Source of the DNA: Streptomyces sp. LUP47B
GTDB taxonomy: Bacteria; Actinomycetota; Actinomycetes; Streptomycetales; Streptomycetaceae
NCBI RefSeq assembly: GCF_001746295.1
Contig: NZ_MJAH01000004.1
Location: 215,995-279,994 of the forward strand
DNA: 64,000 bases
Reading direction: 5' to 3'
The notes under the pieces were generated by a model. It worked only from the letters and a program-made list of their open reading frames with translations. It was not told the DNA's origin and made no database searches. Shown here in pieces: positions 35,343 through 50,096 of this stretch. The translations under genes and the position numbers were made by a program. The stretch's first letter is position 1. Each line of letters opens with the position of its first letter.

Positions 35343-36070
35343 GGATCCTGCGGGAGGGGTGGGGCGGTCGGGTTCGTCACCGTGCCGTTCTCGCATCGGG
35401 CCGAGGGCCGCCCGGTCATGGTGCAGTGGCTGGTGCCGGCAGTGGTGCCGGTCGTGGCGATCGGAGGGCTGCCGCGGCGGCAGGAGTCTGCGGGAGGGGA
35501 GGGCGGTCCGTTTCCGGTTGGGCTCGCCGTTCTGGGAGTGCCGGGCCCGCCGCGGACGGAGGACTGGTCGGTCACTGTGGCGTGGCTGGTGCCGGTCGCG
35601 GGGTCGGGTTGTTGCCGTGGCGGTAGGGCCTGTACGGGTGGGCCGAGGCGGTTCGGCTCTGGTCGGGTCGGCCGTTGGGCGGGTGTCGGCCCCGCCACGG
35701 AGGGAGGACCGGCCTGGGCACGGTGCCGGTCGCGGGGACTGGGCTGTTGCCGCGGCGGTATCGCCCTGTGGCAGGGGTGGGGTGGTCCGGTGCCGGGCGG
35801 GCTCGCCGTTCTGGGAGTGCCGGGCCCGCCGCGGACGGAGGACTGGTCGGTCAGCGTGGCGTGGCTGGTGGCGGTCGCGGGGTCGGGTTGTTGCCGTGGC
35901 GGTAGGGCCTGTACGGGTGGGCCGAGGCGGTCTGGCTCTGGTCGGGTCGGCCGATGGGCGGGTGTCGGCGCCGACACGGAGGGAGGACCGGTCGCGGGGT
36001 CGGGTTGTTGCCGTGGCGGTAGGGCCCTGTCGCAGGGCCGGGGCCGTTCGGTGCCGGGTGGGCTCGCCGT
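35304..36070. repeat. Degenerate tandem array derived from the 3' end of the MFS gene
   Basis: The last codons of the MFS gene, ending GGGGTGCTGCCGCGGCGGTAG, recur downstream. The CCGYGGCGG mark is at 35331 (in the gene), 35472, 35615, 35750, 35894 and 36011, spacings 141, 143, 135, 144 and 117 bp. Three of the five copies keep the TAG stop. A higher-order unit of 279 bp (35521 and 35800) is almost identical over more than 150 bp. Long frames on both strands here are proline/arginine low-complexity artefacts. 35343-36301 holds no other gene. Confidence 0.8.
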
Positions 36071-38679: not shown

Positions 38680-40354
<1,675 letters not shown>

Positions 40355-40358
<4 letters not shown>

Positions 40359-41362
40359 GGAACACGGCGACCAAGCAGAACGGGAAGATCCCGGCACAGC
40401 CGGGGCCGCGGGAGGTGGCGTCCGTGAAGCCCGGAGTTCCTTCCGACGCGGAATCGGTCATCCCCGGTGCCGGTCCGAGCGCCCACCCCGGCGAGCGTCC
40501 CACCGTGCGGCTCAGGGACGCGGGTCCCGACGACGCTCCCCGCTACGCCCCCGAGTGGCTCGAGCTCCGGGAGGGGCCCGACGCGGCCGCGCGGGCGGGC
40601 GATCTGATCGACCCGCTGCGGATCCGGCTGGCGAACCTGCCGGGCAAGGCCGGCCTCGTCATCCACGACCTGGGCTGCGGCACCGGCTCGATGGGCCGCT
40701 GGCTGGCGCCCCGCCTGGACGGCCCCCAGCACTGGATCCTGCACGACCGGGACCCCTACCTCCTGCACTTCGCGGCGGTCGCCTCCCCGCGTTCCGCCGC
40801 CGACGGCAGCCGGGTCACCGTCGAGACCCGCCGCGGCGACGTCGGCCTGCTCACCCCGGACGCCCTCGCCGGCGCCTCCCTGGTCACGGCCTCCGCGCTC
40901 CTCGATGTCCTCACCCGCGAGGAGATCGGGACCCTCGCCACGGCCTGCACGGGCGCCGGCTGCCCGGCCCTGCTCACCCTGTCCGTGGCGGGCCGCGTCG
41001 AACTCACTCCGTCCGACCCGCTGGACGACGAGATCGCCGACGCGTTCAACGCCCATCAGCGGCGCGGCGGACTGCTCGGCCCGGACGCCGTCACCGTCGC
41101 CTGCGAGGCGTTCTCCGAACGGGGCGCGACGGTACGGCTGCATCCGAGCGCCTGGCGCCTCGGCCCCGCCGAGTCCGCGCTCACCGCCCAGTGGCTGCGC
41201 GGCTGGGTCGGCGCGGCCGTCGAGGAGCGGCCCGAGCTGAAGGAGCCCGCCGAGCGCTACCTCCGGGACCGTCTGGAGGCCTGCCGCGCGGGCGAGTTGA
41301 AGGTCGTCGTCCACCACAGCGACCTGCTGGCGCTGTCCCGGCCGACGGGCGGAGCGTCATGA
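40355..41362 (+). CDS. SAM-dependent methyltransferase
   Basis: 335 residues from ATG 40355 (ATGA overlap). Residues 1-65 are a disordered proline-rich leader; the class I fold starts with motif I VIHDLGCGTGSMGRW (about 107-120), then the acid at HWILHDRDPYLL. It ends overlapping the next start. Substrate presumably the same intermediate as the glycosyltransferase. The long disordered leader is unusual for a small-molecule methyltransferase. Confidence 0.85.
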
Positions 41363-42873
41363 GCGTGGAGACGGTGCGGCCGGACACCGAGCGGCATACG
41401 GAGCGCACCGGACGCCGGGAGGAGGACCACTCGACGCGCGGCGACGACGCCGGGGCGGGCGAGGGGCGCGGGCCCCTTGCGGTCCGTAGCGCCGACCAGA
41501 GCAAGGCGAGCCTCCCGGTCCGCAGCACCGGTCACGGCGCGGCGCGGCTGCCCGTCCGGCGATCCGCGGAGGCGTCCGAGCCGGGCGCCCTCTCGCGCCG
41601 GGCCCTCACGCTCCAGGCCGAGGTGGTCCAGACGCGGGACGAGGTGCTCACGGCGCGGGCCGATGCGCTCGTGGCCCGGGCCCGGATCCTGGAGGCAGCC
41701 GGAGAGTCCGTCGCGGACCTGACCGCCGCCGTCTCCCGGGACCGGATCGGCGTGATCGTGACCGAGGCACGGCCCCTGCCCGCTCAGGCCCCCCGCTGGC
41801 GTACCGCGCTGCGCGGAGTCCTCAGCTCCAGCGCCCTGCGCACCCACATCGGCACCGTCGCGGGCGTCACCATCCTCGCGGTCCTGTTGTGGCGCCTCGG
41901 CACCGGCGTCTTCCTCGACGGGCTGCGCCGGATCGACGGCCCGGCCCTGCTGGCGGCGCTCGCGATCGGCGTGCTGACCACCGTGTTCAGCGCCTGGCGT
42001 TGGCAGTTGGTGGCCCGCGGGCTGCGCATCCGGCTGCCGCTCGGCGAGGCCGTGGCCGACTACTACCGCGCCCTGTTCCTGAACGCGGCGTTGCCCGGCG
42101 GTGTCCTCGGCGATGTGCACCGCGCGGTGCGGCACGGGCAGAGCACCGGTGACATGGGCCGCGGCGTACGGGCGGTCGTCCTCGAACGGGTCGCCGGGCA
42201 GATCGCGTTGGCCGTCGTCGGCGGTGCCGTGTTGCTCACCATGGAGTCCCCGGTGCTGGCCGAGGCCCGCCACCTCGCCCCCGTCGTCGGCCTCGCCGCC
42301 CTCGGTGCGCTCGCCGTCGTCGTGGCCCTGCGGATGAACCGGACCCCTTCCTCGCGCCGGCGCCGCCTCCTGCGGGCGACCCTCGGCGAGGCCCGCGAGG
42401 GACTGCTGTCCCGCCGCAACTGGCCGGGCGTCGCGCTCTCCTCGGCCGTCGTCCTCGCCGGCCACCTCGGGATGTTCGTGCTCGCCGCCCGCATCGCGGG
42501 CTCCGACGCCACCGTCGCCGAACTGCTGCCCCTGGCCGTGCTCGCCCTGCTCGCCATGGGACTACCCCTGAACATCGGGGGGTTCGGGCCCCGGGAGGGC
42601 GTCACCGCCTGGGCGTTCGCCGCCATGGGCCTCGGCGCCGGCGCCGGCCTCGCGACCGCCATCGTGTACGGCGTCCTCAGCTTCGTGGCGAGCCTGCCGG
42701 GCGCGGTCGTCCTGGTCGTCCGCTGGTACCAGGGCCTGCGCCCGGCGAACCGCTACTCCCCGGTGAGCGCCGAGAAATACGCACCGAAGGACGCCGCGAG
42801 GCTCTCCAGCAAGGCTTTCCCCTTTTCCGCCGAGCCCAGTGAAGGGCGCCCGATGACACCGGAATCGGTGTAA
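41359..42873 (+). CDS. Lysylphosphatidylglycerol synthase TM-region/flippase-like membrane protein
   Basis: 504 residues. Residues 1-150 are charged and disordered or coiled; from about 155 on there are about eight membrane segments of the YbhN/UPF0104 type, with FSAWRWQLVARGL and NAALPGGVLGDVHRA and the later NIGGFGPREG. This fold is known from lipid flippase domains (MprF) and from hopanoid and glycolipid loci. In the cluster it could move a lipid-linked product across the membrane. Its 3' end overlaps the convergent creatininase-family gene by 121 bp. Confidence 0.82.
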   Translation: MSVETVRPDTERHTERTGRREEDHSTRGDDAGAGEGRGPLAVRSADQSKASLPVRSTGHGAARLPVRRSAEASEPGALSRRALTLQAEVVQTRDEVLTARADALVARARILEAAGESVADLTAAVSRDRIGVIVTEARPLPAQAPRWRTALRGVLSSSALRTHIGTVAGVTILAVLLWRLGTGVFLDGLRRIDGPALLAALAIGVLTTVFSAWRWQLVARGLRIRLPLGEAVADYYRALFLNAALPGGVLGDVHRAVRHGQSTGDMGRGVRAVVLERVAGQIALAVVGGAVLLTMESPVLAEARHLAPVVGLAALGALAVVVALRMNRTPSSRRRRLLRATLGEAREGLLSRRNWPGVALSSAVVLAGHLGMFVLAARIAGSDATVAELLPLAVLALLAMGLPLNIGGFGPREGVTAWAFAAMGLGAGAGLATAIVYGVLSFVASLPGAVVLVVRWYQGLRPANRYSPVSAEKYAPKDAARLSSKAFPFSAEPSEGRPMTPESV

Positions 42874-43505
42874 CCGGACATACCGAGGGTGAGGAGATGA
42901 CGACGGTCGTCCGCGACGAAATCGGAGGTCTCGTAACCGGATCGGACACATTCCGGATCGGTGTGCAGAAGAATGGAGGTCTCGATTTCACCCGCGTGCA
43001 TGTCGGTGAGCAGCGAGGTGACGACGCCGGCCTCCACACGGGCGGCCTCCCAGTCCTCCGCGGCCGGGAAGAGCGCCATCCGCTCCCCGCGGGCGGAGGC
43101 CTCCTGGACGACGTTGCCCAGCACGTAGTTGCCGCCGTGTCCGTTGACCACGACCAGCGCCTCGACGCCCGAGCGGCGCAGCGAGGCCGCTATGTCCCGT
43201 ACCACCGCATGAAGGGTGACGGAGGAGATGCTGACGGTCCCCGGCCAGGCCGCGTGCTCGTGCGAGCAGGAGATCGTCACCGGGGGGAGGAGGTGCACCG
43301 GGTACGCCGCGGCGATCTCCCGCGCGACGGCACAGGCGACGAGCGTGTCGGTCGCCAGGGGGAGGTACGGACCGTGTTGTTCGAAGCTTCCGACCGGAAG
43401 GACGGCGACCTGCGTTGAAACGCCCGCGCCCCGCGTCCGTACGTCTTCCGTAGTGTCCGTCGGCAACAGACCGTACGCCGCCGACCGTATTCCCGAACCG
43501 CTCAT
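42753..43505 (-). CDS. Creatininase-family metallo-amidohydrolase (ArfB/FAPy deformylase-like)
   Basis: 250 residues. Metal ligands of the family are in place: Glu42 and His44 (EQHGPYLP), Asp53, His123 (NGHGGN) and Glu173 (DMHAGEIETS). The family includes creatininase, mycofactocin MftE and archaeal ArfB, which removes the formyl group from the formamido-pyrimidine made by special GTP cyclohydrolases. Its divergent neighbour, 38 bp away, is just such a cyclohydrolase paralogue, so ArfB-like deformylation is the best guess. The 3' part overlaps the flippase-like gene on the other strand. Confidence 0.85.
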   Translation of the reverse strand: MSGSGIRSAAYGLLPTDTTEDVRTRGAGVSTQVAVLPVGSFEQHGPYLPLATDTLVACAVAREIAAAYPVHLLPPVTISCSHEHAAWPGTVSISSVTLHAVVRDIAASLRRSGVEALVVVNGHGGNYVLGNVVQEASARGERMALFPAAEDWEAARVEAGVVTSLLTDMHAGEIETSILLHTDPECVRSGYETSDFVADDRRHLLTLGMSGYTDSGVIGRPSLGSAEKGKALLESLAASFGAYFSALTGE

Positions 43506-43543
43506 CTTTTCACGGCCTTTCGTCTCTGCTTAGGAAACAGATC

Positions 43544-44203
43544 ATGACAGATAAAGTTGGCGTCCTCGGCAAGAAGGCACCACAGCGCACCGGCGTGGAA
43601 CGCGTGGTGAATGCCCCGCTGCCCACCGTGTACGGGAAATTCCAGGCGGTCGGCTATCTCGATCACGACCGCGGTGACGAACAGGTCGCCCTGGTCTACG
43701 GTGACATCGGCTCGGACGACGTCCTCGTCCGGTTGCATTCGGAGTGCCTGACCGGTGACGCGTTCGGCTCCCAGCACTGCGAGTGCGGCGACCAGCTGGA
43801 TGCCGCGCTGCGGGCCGTGGTCAAGGAGGGCAGCGGCATCGTCGTCTACCTGCGGGGCCACGAGGGCCGGGGCATAGGACTGCTCGCCAAGCTGCGCGCG
43901 ATGGCGCTCCAGGCGGAGGGTCTGGACACGGTGGAGGCCAACCTCGCGCTCGGGCTGCCCGTGGACTCCCGTGACTACGGCGTCGCCGCCGGGATCTTCC
44001 ACGACCTGGGCGTGAACTCGGTCCGCCTGATGTCCAACAATCCGCGCAAGCGTGAGGCGCTGCTGCGGCACGGCATCAAGGTCGCCGAGACGGTGCCGCT
44101 GCTGATCACGCCGTGCGAGAGCAACATCACCTATCTGCGCACCAAGCGGGAGCGGCTGGACCACGTCCTGCCCCATCTGGACGCGGTGGCCCACCTGTCC
44201 TGA
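43544..44203 (+). CDS. ribA: GTP cyclohydrolase II paralogue with Met120 (formamide-product type)
   Basis: 219 residues. Zinc ligands Cys69, Cys79, Cys81 (HSECLTG and HCECG) and the arginine region HEGRGIGLL are intact. The residue equal to E. coli RibA Tyr105, in KIRAYALQ, is Met120 (KLRAMALQ). From memory, the S. coelicolor paralogue SCO6655 with this Met opens the GTP ring but stops at the formylated product (FAPy) and does not release formate. A deformylase-like gene next to it completes that step. AGGAAA precedes ATG. So it most likely feeds a special pathway, not riboflavin. Confidence 0.9.
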   Translation: MTDKVGVLGKKAPQRTGVERVVNAPLPTVYGKFQAVGYLDHDRGDEQVALVYGDIGSDDVLVRLHSECLTGDAFGSQHCECGDQLDAALRAVVKEGSGIVVYLRGHEGRGIGLLAKLRAMALQAEGLDTVEANLALGLPVDSRDYGVAAGIFHDLGVNSVRLMSNNPRKREALLRHGIKVAETVPLLITPCESNITYLRTKRERLDHVLPHLDAVAHLS

Positions 44204-44247
44204 TCACGGACTGATTCCGGGACGGGAAATCCGGACAGGAAGAGGGA

Positions 44248-44355
44248 ATGACCGACGTCCTCTTCCTCTCCGGCCCGCTCAAGGCAGGGCTGCCGACCGA
44301 TCCCGCCGGCCTCGGCATCCAGGACGCGGCCGCGGCGACGGGGGCGCGCCGGTGA
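44248..44355 (+). CDS. Small protein (35 aa) coupled to the FAD oxidase
   Basis: ATG 44248 has a strong GGAAGAGGG just before it, and its TGA overlaps the next GTG (GTGA), which makes translation real in all likelihood. The product starts MTDVLFLSGPLKAG and ends with an alanine-rich tail. No family recognised. It may only serve to couple translation, or be a small subunit of the oxidase. Confidence 0.5.
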   Translation: MTDVLFLSGPLKAGLPTDPAGLGIQDAAAATGARR

Positions 44356-45500
44356 GCACGTACACGGCCGATGTCGTCGTGATCGGCGGCGGAGTCATGG
44401 GCACGAGCATCGCCCGCCACCTGGCGCGCGCCGGCGTACGGGACGTGGTGCTCGTCGAGCGCGACGAACTCGCCTCCGGCTCCACCTCGAAGGCCGCGGG
44501 CGGGGTGCGGGCCCAGTTCTCCGACGAGCTCAACATCCGGCTCGGGGCGCGCAGCCTCGAGGCGTTCGGCCGCTTCGAGGAGGAGACGGGGCAGGACATC
44601 GGACTGCACCGCGTCGGCTATCTGTTCCTCCTGTCGACCCCGCAAGAGGTCACCTCCTTCGAGGAGAGCGTGCGCCTCCAGAACTCCGTCGGCGTCCCGA
44701 GCCGCATGACCGACCCGGCCGAGGCGCGCCGGCTGTCCCCCCTCATCACCACCGACGGCCTGCTCGCCGTCGCCTTCTCGCCCGAGGACGGCCACTGCAC
44801 CCCCGAGTCCGTCGTGCACGGCTACGCCGCCGACGCCCGCCGCCACGGCGCGACGATCCTGCGGCACACGCAGGTCACCGGCATCGAACTGCGCGGCGAC
44901 GACATCAGGGCCGTCGTGACGAGCAGGGGCCGGATCGCCACCGGCACGGTGATCTGCGCGGCCGGCGCCTGGTCGCGGGCCGTCGGCGCGATGGTCGGCG
45001 TGGACCTGCCGGTCGAGCCGCTGCGCCGCCAGATCGCGGTCACCGAACCGGTCGAGGGGCTGCCGCCCGACCTCCCCATGACCATCGACTTCACCAGCAG
45101 CCTCTACTTCCACGGCGAGGGCCCCGGCCTCCTCCTCGGCATGTCCGACCCCGACGAGACACCCGGTTTCGACACCGCCACCCACGACCGCTGGATCCCC
45201 CGCCTCGCCGAGGCCATGAGCCTTCGCGCTCCCGCCCTGCTCGACCTGCGCCGCACCGGCGGCTGGGCCGGCCTGTACGAGCTCACCCCCGACCACAACG
45301 CCCTGATCGGCGAGGCCACTTCGGTGTCCCGTTTCCTGTACGCGACCGGCTTCTCCGGTCACGGCTTCCTCCAGGGGCCGGCCGTCGGCGAGGTCGTCCG
45401 CGACCTGTACCTCGGCCGCGTACCCTTCGTGGACATCAGCCCGCTCAGCGCCGGCCGGTTCGCGGCCGACGCCCCGCGCCCGGAGGCCAACCGCGTATGA
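44352..45500 (+). CDS. FAD-dependent amino-acid/imine oxidoreductase (DAO superfamily)
   Basis: 382 residues from GTG 44352. FAD Rossmann motif DVVVIGGGVMGTSIARHLA at 5-22 with the acid at VLVERDE; the second strand motif ends in SKAAGGVRAQFS. The C-terminal GFSGHGFLQGPAVGE is the flavin lid of the sarcosine oxidase/DadA class. Likely oxidises an N-substituted or D-amino acid, or a cyclic imine such as pipecolate. Its partner genes are two saccharopine-dehydrogenase-like enzymes, coupled by ATGA overlap. Confidence 0.85.
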   Translation: MSTYTADVVVIGGGVMGTSIARHLARAGVRDVVLVERDELASGSTSKAAGGVRAQFSDELNIRLGARSLEAFGRFEEETGQDIGLHRVGYLFLLSTPQEVTSFEESVRLQNSVGVPSRMTDPAEARRLSPLITTDGLLAVAFSPEDGHCTPESVVHGYAADARRHGATILRHTQVTGIELRGDDIRAVVTSRGRIATGTVICAAGAWSRAVGAMVGVDLPVEPLRRQIAVTEPVEGLPPDLPMTIDFTSSLYFHGEGPGLLLGMSDPDETPGFDTATHDRWIPRLAEAMSLRAPALLDLRRTGGWAGLYELTPDHNALIGEATSVSRFLYATGFSGHGFLQGPAVGEVVRDLYLGRVPFVDISPLSAGRFAADAPRPEANRV

Positions 45501-46561
45501 CCGAGCTCCATCTGTGGCTGCGCCACGAGGTCCGTTCCACCGAGCGACGCACACCCGTCGTGCCGTCCGACGCCCGGCGGCTCGTCGACAGCGGGGTGAC
45601 GCTGACCGTCGAGGAGTCCCCGCAGCGGATCTTCCCGGTCGAGGAGTACGAGGCGGCCGGCTGCCGAGTCGCGCCCGCGGGTTCGTGGGCGTCCCGGGCG
45701 CCGCTGGACGCCGTGGTCGTAGGCCTGAAGGAACTCCCCGACGAGCCCGCCGCCCTGCCGCACCGGCACGTCTTCTTCGGGCACGCCTACAAGGGGCAGC
45801 CGGGCGCCCCGGAACTGCTGCGCCGGTTCGCCGCCGGGGGAGGGGCGCTCCTCGACCTGGAGTACCTGGTCGACGACCAGGGCCGCAGGCTCACCGCCTT
45901 CGGCTACTGGGCCGGTTACCTGGGTGCGGCCCTGGCCGTGCTCCAGCACCGGGGCAGGCTGTCCGCGCCCCTCACGCCCACCTCGCAGGAGGAGCTGGCG
46001 GAGGTGCTGCGGCCCGTCGCCGGGGACGAGGAGTTCAGGGCGCTGGTGATCGGGGCCCTGGGCCGCAGCGGCCGGGGCGCGCGCGTCGCGCTCCGGGCCG
46101 CCGGGGTCGAGCCGGTCTGCTGGGACCTCGAGGAGACCCGCGCCCTGGACCGCCCCGCCCTGCTCGCCCACGACCTGCTCGTGAACTGCGTCCTCGCCAC
46201 CACTCCCGTCCCGCCCTTCGTCCGCGAGGCGGACCTGGACGACCCGGCCCGCCGGTTGCGCACCCTCTCCGACGTCACCTGCGACGTCGGCTCGCCCCTG
46301 AACGTCCTGCCGGTCTACGACCGTGTCACCGAGTGGGCCGAGCCCGTCCGCCGGCTGCACAAGGAGCCCCCGCTCGACCTGATCGCCATCGACAACCTGC
46401 CGTCCCTGCTCCCGGAGGAGGCCAGCGTCGACTTCTCGGCGTCCCTGCTGCCCCTGCTGCCGGCGTTCGGGGTCGCCGGCCCCTGGGGGCGCTGTCTGGA
46501 CCGGTTCCATCAGGCGTGCCGTGAACTCGGCATCGACGAAGGGGAGTTCCGCCGTGCCTGA
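45497..46561 (+). CDS. Saccharopine dehydrogenase, lysine-forming (LYS1/AlaDH-PNT-like)
   Basis: 354 residues. The AlaDH/PNT N-terminal pattern LRHEVRSTERRTPVVPSDA and the later FGHAYKGQ, DLEYLVDDQGRRLTAFGYWAG match NAD-dependent saccharopine dehydrogenases that make lysine and 2-oxoglutarate, or the reverse. The NAD loop GALGRSGRGARVAL is at about 180. Overlaps the FAD oxidase stop and, by 8 bp, the next gene. Bacterial use of the pair suggests lysine breakdown or an opine-like condensation. Confidence 0.85.
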   Translation: MTELHLWLRHEVRSTERRTPVVPSDARRLVDSGVTLTVEESPQRIFPVEEYEAAGCRVAPAGSWASRAPLDAVVVGLKELPDEPAALPHRHVFFGHAYKGQPGAPELLRRFAAGGGALLDLEYLVDDQGRRLTAFGYWAGYLGAALAVLQHRGRLSAPLTPTSQEELAEVLRPVAGDEEFRALVIGALGRSGRGARVALRAAGVEPVCWDLEETRALDRPALLAHDLLVNCVLATTPVPPFVREADLDDPARRLRTLSDVTCDVGSPLNVLPVYDRVTEWAEPVRRLHKEPPLDLIAIDNLPSLLPEEASVDFSASLLPLLPAFGVAGPWGRCLDRFHQACRELGIDEGEFRRA

Positions 46562-47726
46562 CCTGGTTCCCGCGACCGGCACCGTCCACTGGATCGGCGC
46601 CGGGCTCTCCACCGGCAGCGGCCTTGCCGAGCTGTGCGACACCGCCGACCGGGTCCGCCTGTGGCACCGCACCGAGGAGCGTGCCGCCGAGGCCGTCGCG
46701 GCACTGGGGCTCACCGGACGGGCCGAGCCGGGCGCCTACTCGCTGTCCGCGCTCGCGGCCGCACTGGCGCCCGGGGACGTCGTCGTGTCGATGCTGCCCG
46801 CGCCCGAGCACGCCGGGATCCTCGCCGCCTGTGTGCGGGGAAAGGCCCACTTCGCCTGCTCCAGCTATGTGTCCGACGCCGTCCTCGAACAGGTGCCGGA
46901 GGCGGAGAAGGCCGGGATCGTCGTCCTCACCGAGGCGGGCCTCGACCCGGGCATCGACCACCTCTTCGCGCACAGCCTCGTCGCCCGGGCCCGCGGTGTG
47001 ATCGGCGACGCGACACCGGCGTCGTACAGCCTCACCTCCTACTGCGGTGGTGTCCCCGCCGTCCCGAACGACTTCAGGTACCGCTTCAGCTGGGCCCCCG
47101 CCGGCGTCCTGAACGCCCTGCGCTCACCCGCCCGTTACCTCGACAACGGCAACCCGACCACCGCCGACCGACCCTGGGAGGCGACCCGGCGCCATGTCGT
47201 GGACGGCGAGACCTTCGAGGTCTACCCCAACCGCGACAGCGTCCCCTTCATCGAGCAGTACGGACTGCCGGCCGCCTGGACACCGCGGACCTTCGTGCGC
47301 GGCACCCTCCGTCTTGACGGCTGGCTGCGCGCCTGGGAACCGGTCTTCGAGGAGCTGAGGACCGGCGACGACACCCGGATCGCCGCCCTGGCCCAGGATC
47401 TGGCGGCCAGATACCCGACGACGGACGCCGACCGCGACCGGGTCGTCCTCGCCGTCTCCCTCGACGTGCGCGCGAAGGACGGCCGCACCTGGTCCGGCGG
47501 CTACCTCCTCGACCTGGTGGGTGACGAGGAGGACAGCGCCATGGCCCGCTGTGTCTCCCGCACCCTCGCCCTCGGCACCGGTCACATCCTGGACGGCTCT
47601 GTTCCGGCAGGCCTGAACCGGGCGGCGGAGACGGCGGCCCGGTCCGAGCAGTGGCTGGGTGAACTCGCCCGCGACGGCGTCCACTTCACGCTCCGGGTCG
47701 ATCACCAGGCGACCCGGGGCGCCTAG
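46554..47726 (+). CDS. Saccharopine dehydrogenase-like protein (glutamate-forming, LYS9-like)
   Basis: 390 residues from GTG 46554 (GGGGAG upstream). NAD(P) fold starts at VHWIGAGLSTGSGLAELC; the family's TEAGLDPGIDH and YCGGVPA are present. Known members split saccharopine to glutamate and aminoadipate semialdehyde. With the LYS1-like gene, lysine could pass to the semialdehyde, then cyclise and be oxidised by the FAD enzyme. Convergent with the serine hydrolase; the stops overlap in CTAG. Confidence 0.85.
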   Translation: MPDLVPATGTVHWIGAGLSTGSGLAELCDTADRVRLWHRTEERAAEAVAALGLTGRAEPGAYSLSALAAALAPGDVVVSMLPAPEHAGILAACVRGKAHFACSSYVSDAVLEQVPEAEKAGIVVLTEAGLDPGIDHLFAHSLVARARGVIGDATPASYSLTSYCGGVPAVPNDFRYRFSWAPAGVLNALRSPARYLDNGNPTTADRPWEATRRHVVDGETFEVYPNRDSVPFIEQYGLPAAWTPRTFVRGTLRLDGWLRAWEPVFEELRTGDDTRIAALAQDLAARYPTTDADRDRVVLAVSLDVRAKDGRTWSGGYLLDLVGDEEDSAMARCVSRTLALGTGHILDGSVPAGLNRAAETAARSEQWLGELARDGVHFTLRVDHQATRGA

Positions 47727-48949
47727 TCCACGACCGCCTCGTGGACCAGCCGCTTGAGGTCGGGGAACAGCTTCAGCGTCTTCGGCCGCACCTGGGTGAA
47801 GAACTGCACGGTCAGATCGCGGCCCGGGTCGACCCAGAAGGTCGTGGACGCCGCCCCGCTCCACCCGTAGGAACCGAGGCCGGAAGGGGCCAGGGTACGG
47901 GCCGGGTCGGTCACCACGGAGACGCCGAGGCCGAAGCCGACGCCGTCGTTGCCGGACTCGTCGTGGGCGGGTTTGGCACCGAAGGAGCGCAGGTCGGCGC
48001 CGTCCGGGAGGTGGTTGGAGGTCATCAGGTCCACCGTCTCGGCGGACAGCAGACGGGTGCCGTCCAGTTCGCCGCGGCGGCGCAGCAGCTCCGCGAAGCG
48101 GTGGACGTCGTAGGCGGACGCCACCATGCCACCGCTGCCGGACAGCAGGCGGGGGCGGCCCCGCAGCGGCAGGCCGGGGACCGGCTCGATGGTGCCGTCG
48201 TCCTTCTCGCCGTACAACTCCGAGAGCCTGTCCGTCTGTTCGTCCGGCACCCAGAAGCCGGCGTCGGTCATCCCGAGCGGCCCGAGGACGCGCTCGGCGA
48301 AGAAGGCGTCGAGGGTCTGACCGGACGCGATCTCGATGACCCGGCCCAGGACGTTGGAGGCGACCGAGTAGTTCCACTGCGTACCCGGCTCGAACTGCAG
48401 CGGCAGGCTCGCGTACACCGCGACGGTCTCGGCGAGGTCCGAGCCCGGCAGCACGGACGACTCCAGGCCGGCCTCGCGGTAGAGGGCGTCGACCGGGTGG
48501 CAGTGGTAGAAGGCGAAAGTCAGACCCGCGGTGTGGGTCATCAGATGCCGGATCAGGATCGGACCGTCGGCCGGGCGGGTGGTGAGGCTCTCGCCGGAAC
48601 CGTCGACGTAGACCCGGGGCTCCGCGAACGCCGGCAGATAGTCGGCCACCGGGTCGTCCAGCGACAGCCGTCCCTCCTCCACCAGCAGGAGGGCGGCCAC
48701 CGAGGTGACCGGTTTGGTCATCGAGTAGATCCGCCACAGGGTGTCGGCCTCGACCGGCAGGCCGGCCGCGAGGTCACGGTGGCCGTGCGCCGTGAGGTGG
48801 GCGACGCGTCCGCCGCGGGCGACGGACACCAGGAAGCCGGGCATCCGGCCCTCGTCGACGTAGTGGGCGAAGTGCTGGTCGAGGCGGTCCAGCGCCTTGC
48901 CGTCCAGCCCCACCTCAGCGGGATCGACCTCTTGCCGAAGCTGTGCCAT
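47723..48949 (-). CDS. Serine hydrolase of the beta-lactamase family (esterase-like)
   Basis: 408 residues from ATG 48949 (GGAGGAG upstream). Ser-x-x-Lys in YSMTKPV near 75, Tyr in QWNYSVASNV, and the third box GYGLGVSV/GWSGAAST region near the end. No signal peptide, so an intracellular esterase or peptidase rather than a secreted beta-lactamase. Unrelated in sequence detail to the copy at 25330. Substrate unknown. Confidence 0.88.
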   Translation of the reverse strand: MAQLRQEVDPAEVGLDGKALDRLDQHFAHYVDEGRMPGFLVSVARGGRVAHLTAHGHRDLAAGLPVEADTLWRIYSMTKPVTSVAALLLVEEGRLSLDDPVADYLPAFAEPRVYVDGSGESLTTRPADGPILIRHLMTHTAGLTFAFYHCHPVDALYREAGLESSVLPGSDLAETVAVYASLPLQFEPGTQWNYSVASNVLGRVIEIASGQTLDAFFAERVLGPLGMTDAGFWVPDEQTDRLSELYGEKDDGTIEPVPGLPLRGRPRLLSGSGGMVASAYDVHRFAELLRRRGELDGTRLLSAETVDLMTSNHLPDGADLRSFGAKPAHDESGNDGVGFGLGVSVVTDPARTLAPSGLGSYGWSGAASTTFWVDPGRDLTVQFFTQVRPKTLKLFPDLKRLVHEAVVD

Positions 48950-49108
48950 CGCTCTCCTCCGTCGCCGTCCTACGAGGTGCGGACCGATATACCCGGCCCG
49001 GACCACCTCAGACATCATCGTCGCTCAGGAAACCGCCACGAGCCGCGGGTCGGCGGCGAATCGCCGGTCACGGGAATGCCGGGTGCGGCCGGGCCGGTTG
49101 ATCGTGGT

Positions 49109-49558
49109 ATGACTCAGGACGCGACGCAGGACGCACTGCTCCGGCTGCTCTCCCAGGGCCACGGCGGGGTGCTGGTCACCCTCAAACGCGACGGCCGGCC
49201 CCAGCTGTCGAACGTCAGCCACGCCTACTACCCCGACGAGCGGATCATCCGGGTCTCCCTCACCGACGACCGCGCCAAGACCCGCAACCTGCGCCGGGAC
49301 CCCCGCGCCTCGTACCACGTGACGACGCCGGACCGATGGGCGTACACGGTCGCCGAGGGCACGGCCGACCTCACCCCCGTCGCGGACGACCCGCACGACG
49401 ACACGGTCGAGGAACTCGTCCGTCTGTACCGGGACGTCCAGGGCGAACACCCCGACTGGGACGACTACCGCGCGGCGATGGTCCGGGACCGCAGGCTGGT
49501 GCTGCGGTTGCGGGTGGAACGGGCGTACGGGATTCCGGCCCGGACGGACCGCGGCTGA
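49109..49558 (+). CDS. PPOX-class F420-dependent oxidoreductase (FDOR-B-like)
   Basis: 149 residues. Split-barrel start GHGGVLVTLKRDGRPQLSNV and the KTRNLRRDPRASYHVT turn are typical of actinobacterial F420-dependent reductases of the pyridoxamine-oxidase fold. No good ribosome site at ATG 49109; possibly leaderless. Would reduce enones or quinones with F420H2 by family knowledge. Confidence 0.85.
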   Translation: MTQDATQDALLRLLSQGHGGVLVTLKRDGRPQLSNVSHAYYPDERIIRVSLTDDRAKTRNLRRDPRASYHVTTPDRWAYTVAEGTADLTPVADDPHDDTVEELVRLYRDVQGEHPDWDDYRAAMVRDRRLVLRLRVERAYGIPARTDRG

Positions 49559-49685
49559 CCGAGGGGACGCCCCGCGCACCCCGGCGGGAGAGGTCCTACG
49601 ACTCGGGAAGCAGGGCGCATGGCCGATGCGCCGGTGATCGGTGCCTGCCTACGCTGACCGCCACACCGAGGGGGAAGAGGTCACC

Positions 49686-50096
49686 ATGCCGGTCAACGGC
49701 CGCAGCCACATCCGCATCGCCCGCCCGTCCCGGGACCTGGCCGCCGCCGAGCGGTTCTGGGTGGAGGGGCTCGGTCTGGGAGTCGTGTGGCGCGCCGAGG
49801 GCGGCCCCGAACCCGGCGAGCACGACCTGCTGATGCTCGGGTGGCCGGACGCCGACTGGCACCTGGAACTCGTCCACGAGCAGGGCCACCCCGTCGAACC
49901 CCGCCCCACCGAGGAGGACCTGTTGGTGATCTACGTCGACGGGCCCGTACCGGAGGACCTCCTGGCCCGCCTCGAGGCCCACGGCGGCAAACGGGTGCCG
50001 TCGCCCAACCCCTACTGGAACGAGTGGGGCGTCACGGTGGAGGACCCGGACGGGTACCGGCTGGTGCTGTGCACGCGGGGCTGGTCCAACGCGTAG
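49686..50096 (+). CDS. VOC-superfamily (glyoxalase/bleomycin-resistance) protein
   Basis: 136 residues from ATG 49686 (GGGGGAAGAGG upstream). One VOC fold with HIRIARPSRDLAAAERFWVEG at the start, LELVHEQGHP in the middle and DPDGYRLVLC at the end; His, Glu metal ligands fit. Could be a lyase, dioxygenase-like or drug-binding protein. Unlinked in function to its neighbours as far as seen. Confidence 0.88.
   Translation: MPVNGRSHIRIARPSRDLAAAERFWVEGLGLGVVWRAEGGPEPGEHDLLMLGWPDADWHLELVHEQGHPVEPRPTEEDLLVIYVDGPVPEDLLARLEAHGGKRVPSPNPYWNEWGVTVEDPDGYRLVLCTRGWSNA

Follow-up and report, generated by a model that had tools for sequence, protein, structure and literature searches.

According to PMC9854754, Penicillium chrysogenum uses a pipecolate oxidase, followed by a saccharopine reductase and then a saccharopine dehydrogenase, and the title of a reference listed there attributes the conversion of pipecolate to lysine in Penicillium to these same activities. 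Animals and plants carry out the same two half-reactions through saccharopine with a fused, bifunctional LKR/SDH, which acts with aminoadipate semialdehyde dehydrogenase (AASADH) in lysine breakdown, as an excerpt of PMC7253579 has it. In the D-lysine/pipecolate route of Pseudomonas putida, as outlined in part of PMC6667623, a piperideine-2-carboxylate reductase and an L-pipecolate oxidase act together, and the resulting 1-piperideine-6-carboxylate (P6C) is oxidised by a P6C dehydrogenase (P6CDH). Adjacent genes for LYS1-like and LYS9-like proteins, of the same actinobacterial family as those described here, are also known as AzsH/AzsI in azaserine biosynthesis and Tri23/Tri24 in triacsin biosynthesis. 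Here we describe a related operon in Streptomyces sp. LUP47B, encoding a DAO-family flavoenzyme followed by a LYS1-like and a LYS9-like protein. It lies in a high-GC stretch of 64,000 nucleotides (contig NZ_MJAH01000004.1, positions 215,995 to 279,994, forward strand; hereafter the window) of an 11 Mb genome assembled in 56 contigs.

We consider it rather probable that this operon is a pipecolate-to-lysine salvage module. It shares its three activities with Penicillium but is bacterial, and its genes form an operon, an arrangement that the passages of PMC9854754 consulted do not describe for the fungal genes. The P. putida reductase and oxidase would correspond to the OCD-family gene of relatives and to the DAO gene, respectively, whereas LYS9-LYS1 apparently occupies the place of P6CDH. 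Unlike LKR/SDH, the saccharopine enzymes are separate and of fungal type, and P6CDH has no match in the genome that carries them. In the azaserine and triacsin systems, by contrast, an oxidase of AzsM/Spb39 type produces the semialdehyde by cleaving a hydrazine. If our proposal is correct, pipecolate and P6C are salvaged in some Streptomyces through the fungal end of lysine synthesis, in place of P6CDH.

The operon and its encoded enzymes

The genes of the operon are as follows.

44352..45500, + strand: DAO-family flavoenzyme, proposed L-pipecolate oxidase (P6C-forming); 382 aa, GTG start, Pfam DAO 2.4e-75
45497..46561, + strand: LYS1-like saccharopine dehydrogenase of predicted lysine-forming type; 354 aa, ATG start inside the DAO end
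46521..47726, + strand: LYS9-like saccharopine reductase of predicted glutamate-forming type; 401 aa, GTG start

The original prediction, made from the DNA alone, had recognised a saccharopine module with a flavin oxidase, and open reading frame calls, Pfam and PDB matches bear out three intact same-strand genes of these types at 44352-47726. The DAO stop overlaps the LYS1 start and LYS9 begins 41 bases ahead of the LYS1 end; these overlapping genes are one operon. Their dN/dS ratios against six relatives (0.18-0.58, the top values being those of LYS1 against its closest relatives, for which the changes counted are few) indicate that all three are kept by selection.

The LYS1-like protein aligns end to end with yeast Lys1 (3ugk; residues 4-342, E 4.1e-66, 227 bits) and only partially with human LKR (49 bits). 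Lys77, His96, Arg18, Glu122, Arg131 and Asp319 (yeast numbering) are invariant in 117 aligned rows, the window protein included, and Glu78 is present in 116; we take Lys77 and His96 to be the catalytic residues of yeast Lys1 and the remaining positions to be binding residues. Full-length likeness with both Lys77 and His96 in place identifies it as a LYS1 homologue, apparently of the fungal biosynthetic, lysine-forming type, and its far greater proximity to the fungal enzyme than to LKR favours a lysine-forming reading. Pfam reports AlaDh_PNT_N alone for this protein, and NCBIfam gave no match at E 0.001 for either saccharopine enzyme.

The LYS9-like protein carries Sacchrp_dh_NADP and Sacchrp_dh_C domains (Pfam) and matches the saccharopine reductase of Magnaporthe (1e5l, E 1.4e-39). 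Its AlphaFold model (pLDDT, the per-residue confidence score, 92) superimposes on 1ff9 with Z 38.5 and a root-mean-square deviation of 2.3 over 363 residues, ahead of lysine dehydrogenase (Z 33.9) and carboxyspermidine dehydrogenase (32.7), and the motifs DPGxDH, CGG and NRDS occur in 97 of 97 LYS9 sequences. Sequence, fold and motifs together place it among saccharopine reductases. The saccharopine chemistry predicted for the pair at the outset is thus well supported by the yeast and Magnaporthe matches, conserved residues, fold and motifs.

The substrate of the DAO-family enzyme is suggested by gene linkage. Its Pfam score places it firmly in the family, and its nearest PDB relative, 1y56_B, bears the PDB name sarcosine oxidase and belongs to a Pyrococcus proline dehydrogenase as its beta subunit. 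The model of characterised L-pipecolate oxidase (NF050086) gives it 50.8 bits against a cut-off of 600, which puts it outside that family, although it may catalyse the same reaction; its structure model has a pLDDT of 50. In a sister DAO subfamily, 32 of 40 Streptomyces loci have a P6CDH gene on the DAO strand, no more than 5 kb away (G559 being a possible 33rd that a contig end may cut), and for this reason the window enzyme is most likely an L-pipecolate oxidase making P6C/aminoadipate semialdehyde. The P6CDH linkage is that of the sister subfamily, the window DAO's own subfamily being linked to LYS1-LYS9. One DAO (genome G006, contig C13, 69%) falls outside the cuts of both subfamilies and was excluded from both counts.

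A DAO gene adjoins P6CDH in about one tenth of 295 Streptomyces genomes (locus L316 and 31 others), and such loci are likely pipecolate breakdown operons. L316 (5569-10835) has the order DAO, HglS (2-oxoadipate dioxygenase), P6CDH, the latter two over cut-off, and a divergent LysR-like gene; the 14 kb read there contain no LYS gene. The HglS step belongs to the D-lysine/pipecolate route of P. putida, and the arrangement fits that route as outlined in PMC6667623. At L265, the genes for P6CDH (792 bits, cut-off 730) and an amino acid dehydrogenase precede a DAO relative (60%) that is split over two reading frames; an upstream open reading frame resembles glutaryl-CoA dehydrogenase by eye only.

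Direction of flux and competing readings

In the proposed salvage, the DAO would oxidise L-pipecolate, giving P6C and, by equilibration, aminoadipate semialdehyde; LYS9 would reductively join the semialdehyde to glutamate to form saccharopine, and LYS1 would split saccharopine oxidatively into L-lysine and 2-oxoglutarate. LYS9-LYS1 would in this way take the place of P6CDH as the outlet for P6C. In relatives, the OCD-family enzyme would first reduce piperideine-2-carboxylate to L-pipecolate, letting products of lysine deamination enter, a step that the window operon would have lost.

The distribution of P6CDH, found over cut-off in 21 of 150 members of the genus, bears on this direction. The sample consisted of the 30 DAO-intact loci of a survey anchored on the neighbouring cyclohydrolase gene (see below) and 28 added genomes. 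P6CDH was over cut-off in none of the 46 genomes with DAO, LYS1 and LYS9 intact and in 5 of the 12 with DAO and no intact LYS pair (G498, G007, G014, G682 and G693, whose LYS9 is broken in the case of G693; Fisher p 0.0002, kinship ignored). LYS9-LYS1 therefore looks like an alternative P6C outlet, and the simplest reading is that it replaces P6CDH, with flux toward lysine, as P. chrysogenum has it (PMC9854754). G013 and G538, each with a single apparent LYS9 frame change, were counted as not intact and are also without P6CDH. Lysine 6-aminotransferase was sought in the 150-genome set, not in the 28 added genomes. Among the DAO-intact loci of that set, which overlaps with the 46 genomes and whose Fisher values likewise ignore kinship, P6CDH or the aminotransferase was present in 1 of 24 with LYS1 and in all 6 without. 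Where the DAO was not intact there was no contrast (P6CDH in 1 of 7 with LYS1 vs 7 of 30 without, p 1.0). In G009 and G493 the module DAO is lost or truncated, a sister-subfamily DAO lies elsewhere in the genome and P6CDH has no match.

Three genomes with DAO and no intact LYS pair (G512, G001, G456) carry a lysine 6-aminotransferase gene next to that of a related aldehyde dehydrogenase scoring about 345 bits on the P6CDH model. The same direct adjacency is seen in G007 and G465, and these two genes are likely a separate lysine-to-aminoadipate operon.

The original prediction ran in the opposite sense, from lysine through saccharopine to P6C, with the oxidase acting afterwards. In such a lysine breakdown, LYS1 and then LYS9 would lead to P6C, and the DAO would oxidise P6C or pipecolate further, or else a proline-pathway reductase would make pipecolate from P6C. 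The reactions of LYS1 and LYS9 are reversible, and a saccharopine pathway of lysine breakdown has been reported in some bacteria, according to an excerpt of PMC7253579. Lysine breakdown via P6C nevertheless needs P6CDH, and in the window's own genome neither the P6CDH model NF050084 (at E 1e-95) nor lysine 6-aminotransferase (at E 1e-100) found a match, so that the AASA/P6C dehydrogenase expected of saccharopine-based catabolism is missing at that limit. Together with the absence of P6CDH from all 46 whole-module genomes, the fungal biosynthetic type of LYS1 and the pairing of DAO relatives, as makers of P6C, with P6CDH, this makes lysine breakdown unlikely: the direction first proposed is probably backwards, and the oxidase most likely stands upstream of P6C, where the linkage of its relatives puts it. 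Less likely still, the DAO might oxidise saccharopine or another N-alkyl amino acid, duplicating or bypassing LYS9 instead of feeding it. Oxidases of sarcosine, dimethylglycine and fructosyl amino acids do belong to the wider family, and a flavin saccharopine oxidase has been described from a fungus (PMC9854754). Of 67 cyclohydrolase loci, 3 have kept the DAO and another 3 OCD-DAO, in both cases without LYS1-LYS9. The sister subfamily, however, adjoins P6CDH in most of its loci, and the DAO of L316 stands with HglS and P6CDH and without a LYS gene, which argues against saccharopine as the substrate.

Several observations also weigh against pipecolate-to-lysine salvage. Streptomyces are expected to make lysine anyway, and the window DAO and the sister subfamily share just 57-63% identity. 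The own genome has 58 first-look aldehyde dehydrogenase candidates below the limit, one of which could oxidise P6C. Allowing for kinship leaves three independent pairs; each agrees with the prediction, but the test is underpowered (p 0.25). Among individual genomes, G589 and G660 have the DAO with neither a LYS pair nor a P6CDH match, G465 combines the whole module with lysine aminotransferase, and G515 has LYS1-LYS9 together with P6CDH, though its module DAO is broken. Finally, both saccharopine enzymes are described as reversible in PMC9854754.

The lost OCD-family gene and the cyclohydrolase neighbourhood

To the left of the operon lies a gene for a GTP cyclohydrolase II paralogue, which ends at 44203, and between the two is a further feature.

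44248..44355, + strand: scar left by loss of an OCD/mu-crystallin-family gene; 35 codons plus stop, the ends matching the OCD of Streptomyces canus (L059)

The scar brings the two termini of the protein, N and C, together in frame, and its stop overlaps the DAO start; judged from these sequence ends, the operon has lost a fourth gene, for a predicted OCD-family imine reductase kept in relatives, by in-frame deletion. The module had been said to begin 44 bp after the cyclohydrolase gene. The ATG at that distance (44248) belongs to the OCD remnant, and the DAO starts after a gap of 148 bp (44203 to 44352).

Where OCD is intact (14 genes in the cyclohydrolase-anchored survey), a full or partial DAO adjoins each, and 7 of 26 further DAO loci from the phylum have an OCD homologue next to the DAO gene. 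The best model for the OCD of L273 is piperideine/pyrroline-2-carboxylate reductase (259 bits, below the cut-off of 322) and that for the OCD of L122 is archaeal alanine dehydrogenase (195 bits, below 409); the closest solved relative of the latter is a pyrroline-2-carboxylate reductase, followed by alanine dehydrogenase, with lysine cyclodeaminase far behind. The OCD of relatives probably reduces piperideine-2-carboxylate to L-pipecolate. In five loci that were read (L268, L269, L271-L273), amino acid ABC transporter genes, recognised by eye, surround the OCD-DAO pair; two of those in L272 were confirmed by NCBIfam.

A first set of loci, chosen by LYS1 (the best 80 of 575, biased to close relatives, and 15 further stretches), mostly adjoined the same cyclohydrolase; the nearest relatives among the best 80 of 575 were S. 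canus and other Streptomyces. The survey anchored on the cyclohydrolase was made to avoid choosing loci by LYS1. It found the paralogue at 70% identity or more in 67 of 150 Streptomyces genomes and covered about 7 kb downstream, contig ends shortening some stretches (L188, L210, L216 and L222 to less than 4.3 kb); open reading frames outside the window are script-picked guesses. None of the four genes was present in 27 of these loci, DAO-LYS1-LYS9 as in the window in 14 and all four in 8; LYS1-LYS9 only, OCD-DAO only and DAO only accounted for 3 each, and 9 were mixed or partly decayed. LYS1 was full in 31, of which 29 had a full or partial LYS9. The module thus falls into two pairs, OCD-DAO and LYS1-LYS9, each of which is often lost. 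In a LYS1 tree, from which loci L178-L234, duplicate proteins and about three quarters of the cyclohydrolase-linked rows were left out, the cyclohydrolase-linked rows formed one group (support 99) and those from hydrazine clusters did not.

It had also been suggested that the operon supplies an amino acid part to the pathway of the adjoining cyclohydrolase/creatininase/PTPS-like cluster. It does lie beside that cluster on the same strand, and linkage is close in 31 of the 67 cyclohydrolase loci, but the 27 loci devoid of all four genes, and the LYS1-LYS9 pairs found without the cyclohydrolase in hydrazine, cispentacin-type and other settings, show that module and cluster are separable. We reject such a supply as highly improbable; the neighbourhood is shared synteny.

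Position 120 of the cyclohydrolase itself (43544-44203) is Met, a residue shared by 123 of 123 paralogues examined; in S. coelicolor SCO6655, this Tyr-to-Met change is reported to yield a formyl intermediate (FAPy) and not the riboflavin precursor. Also nearby are a PTPS-like gene and, at 42753-43505, a creatininase-family gene with weak likeness to FAPy deformylase. Away from any such cyclohydrolase, all four module genes (OCD-DAO-LYS1-LYS9) and one for an exporter-like protein are found in L122 (1-11230) and L124, next to AmcC and AmcH, genes of amipurimycin/cispentacin type that are over cut-off in L122. To the right of the window operon, LYS9 is overlapped at its end by a convergent gene of the beta-lactamase/esterase family. 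A promoter and terminator scan gave no signal above chance, and Rfam had no match within 40000-50000. Further off, at 35588-35991, lies a GC-rich tandem array with a period of 134 bp and 2.9 copies, in a stretch with an AT skew of -0.28.

Saccharopine pairs in hydrazine antibiotic clusters

Outside the cyclohydrolase group, 12 LYS1 loci hold a gene for lysine N6-hydroxylase or cupin-MetRS, and 11 of these 12 also one for an AzsM-type oxidase. L114 and L052 follow the azaserine cluster table of PMC10445470 both in gene families and in gene order. In related pathways, the oxidase Spb39 releases aminoadipate semialdehyde along with hydrazinoacetic acid (PMC13274452 and PMC11705231, in part). As a proposed extension, LYS9-LYS1 in hydrazine clusters might recycle this semialdehyde to lysine. 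More broadly, and with some reserve, the pair could be a portable actinobacterial cassette that turns semialdehyde into lysine wherever an oxidase frees it, whether a pipecolate oxidase as here or an AzsM/Tri27-type enzyme in hydrazine clusters, where lysine would be a regenerated nitrogen carrier and glutamate the net nitrogen donor. This would give the saccharopine dehydrogenase pairs of azaserine and triacsin biosynthesis a testable role, the regeneration of lysine from released semialdehyde.

Other roles have been suggested for these enzymes. The azaserine authors (PMC10445470) regarded them as apparently not crucial and suggested that they supply lysine; disruption of tri23/tri24 left triacsin unchanged (PMC10445470), which speaks against an essential role of the pair. 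In pyrazomycin biosynthesis, a relative of saccharopine dehydrogenase, PyrL, was suggested to cleave the hydrazine itself (an excerpt of PMC8664883), a rival role. Neither the salvage nor the recycling idea was met in the literature searched, whose scope left out the original triacsin papers and two others, on Penicillium pipecolate and on bacterial lysine catabolism.

A hydrazine pathway in the window's own genome was rejected: no cupin-MetRS hydrazine synthetase was found there, just a 27% match to the MetRS part. The window DAO also bears little resemblance to AzsM, with which it shares 29% identity over only 76 residues; AzsM rows stand apart from other DAO rows in a tree that, with several long branches flagged and L314 oddly placed, was used only for this separation. 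In three Actinokineospora loci (L113, L115, L117), where hydrazine genes were not found, LYS1-LYS9 adjoins a gene of the phosphoenolpyruvate mutase/isocitrate lyase family like AzsC, and L117 has in addition an EamA-type transporter-like gene.

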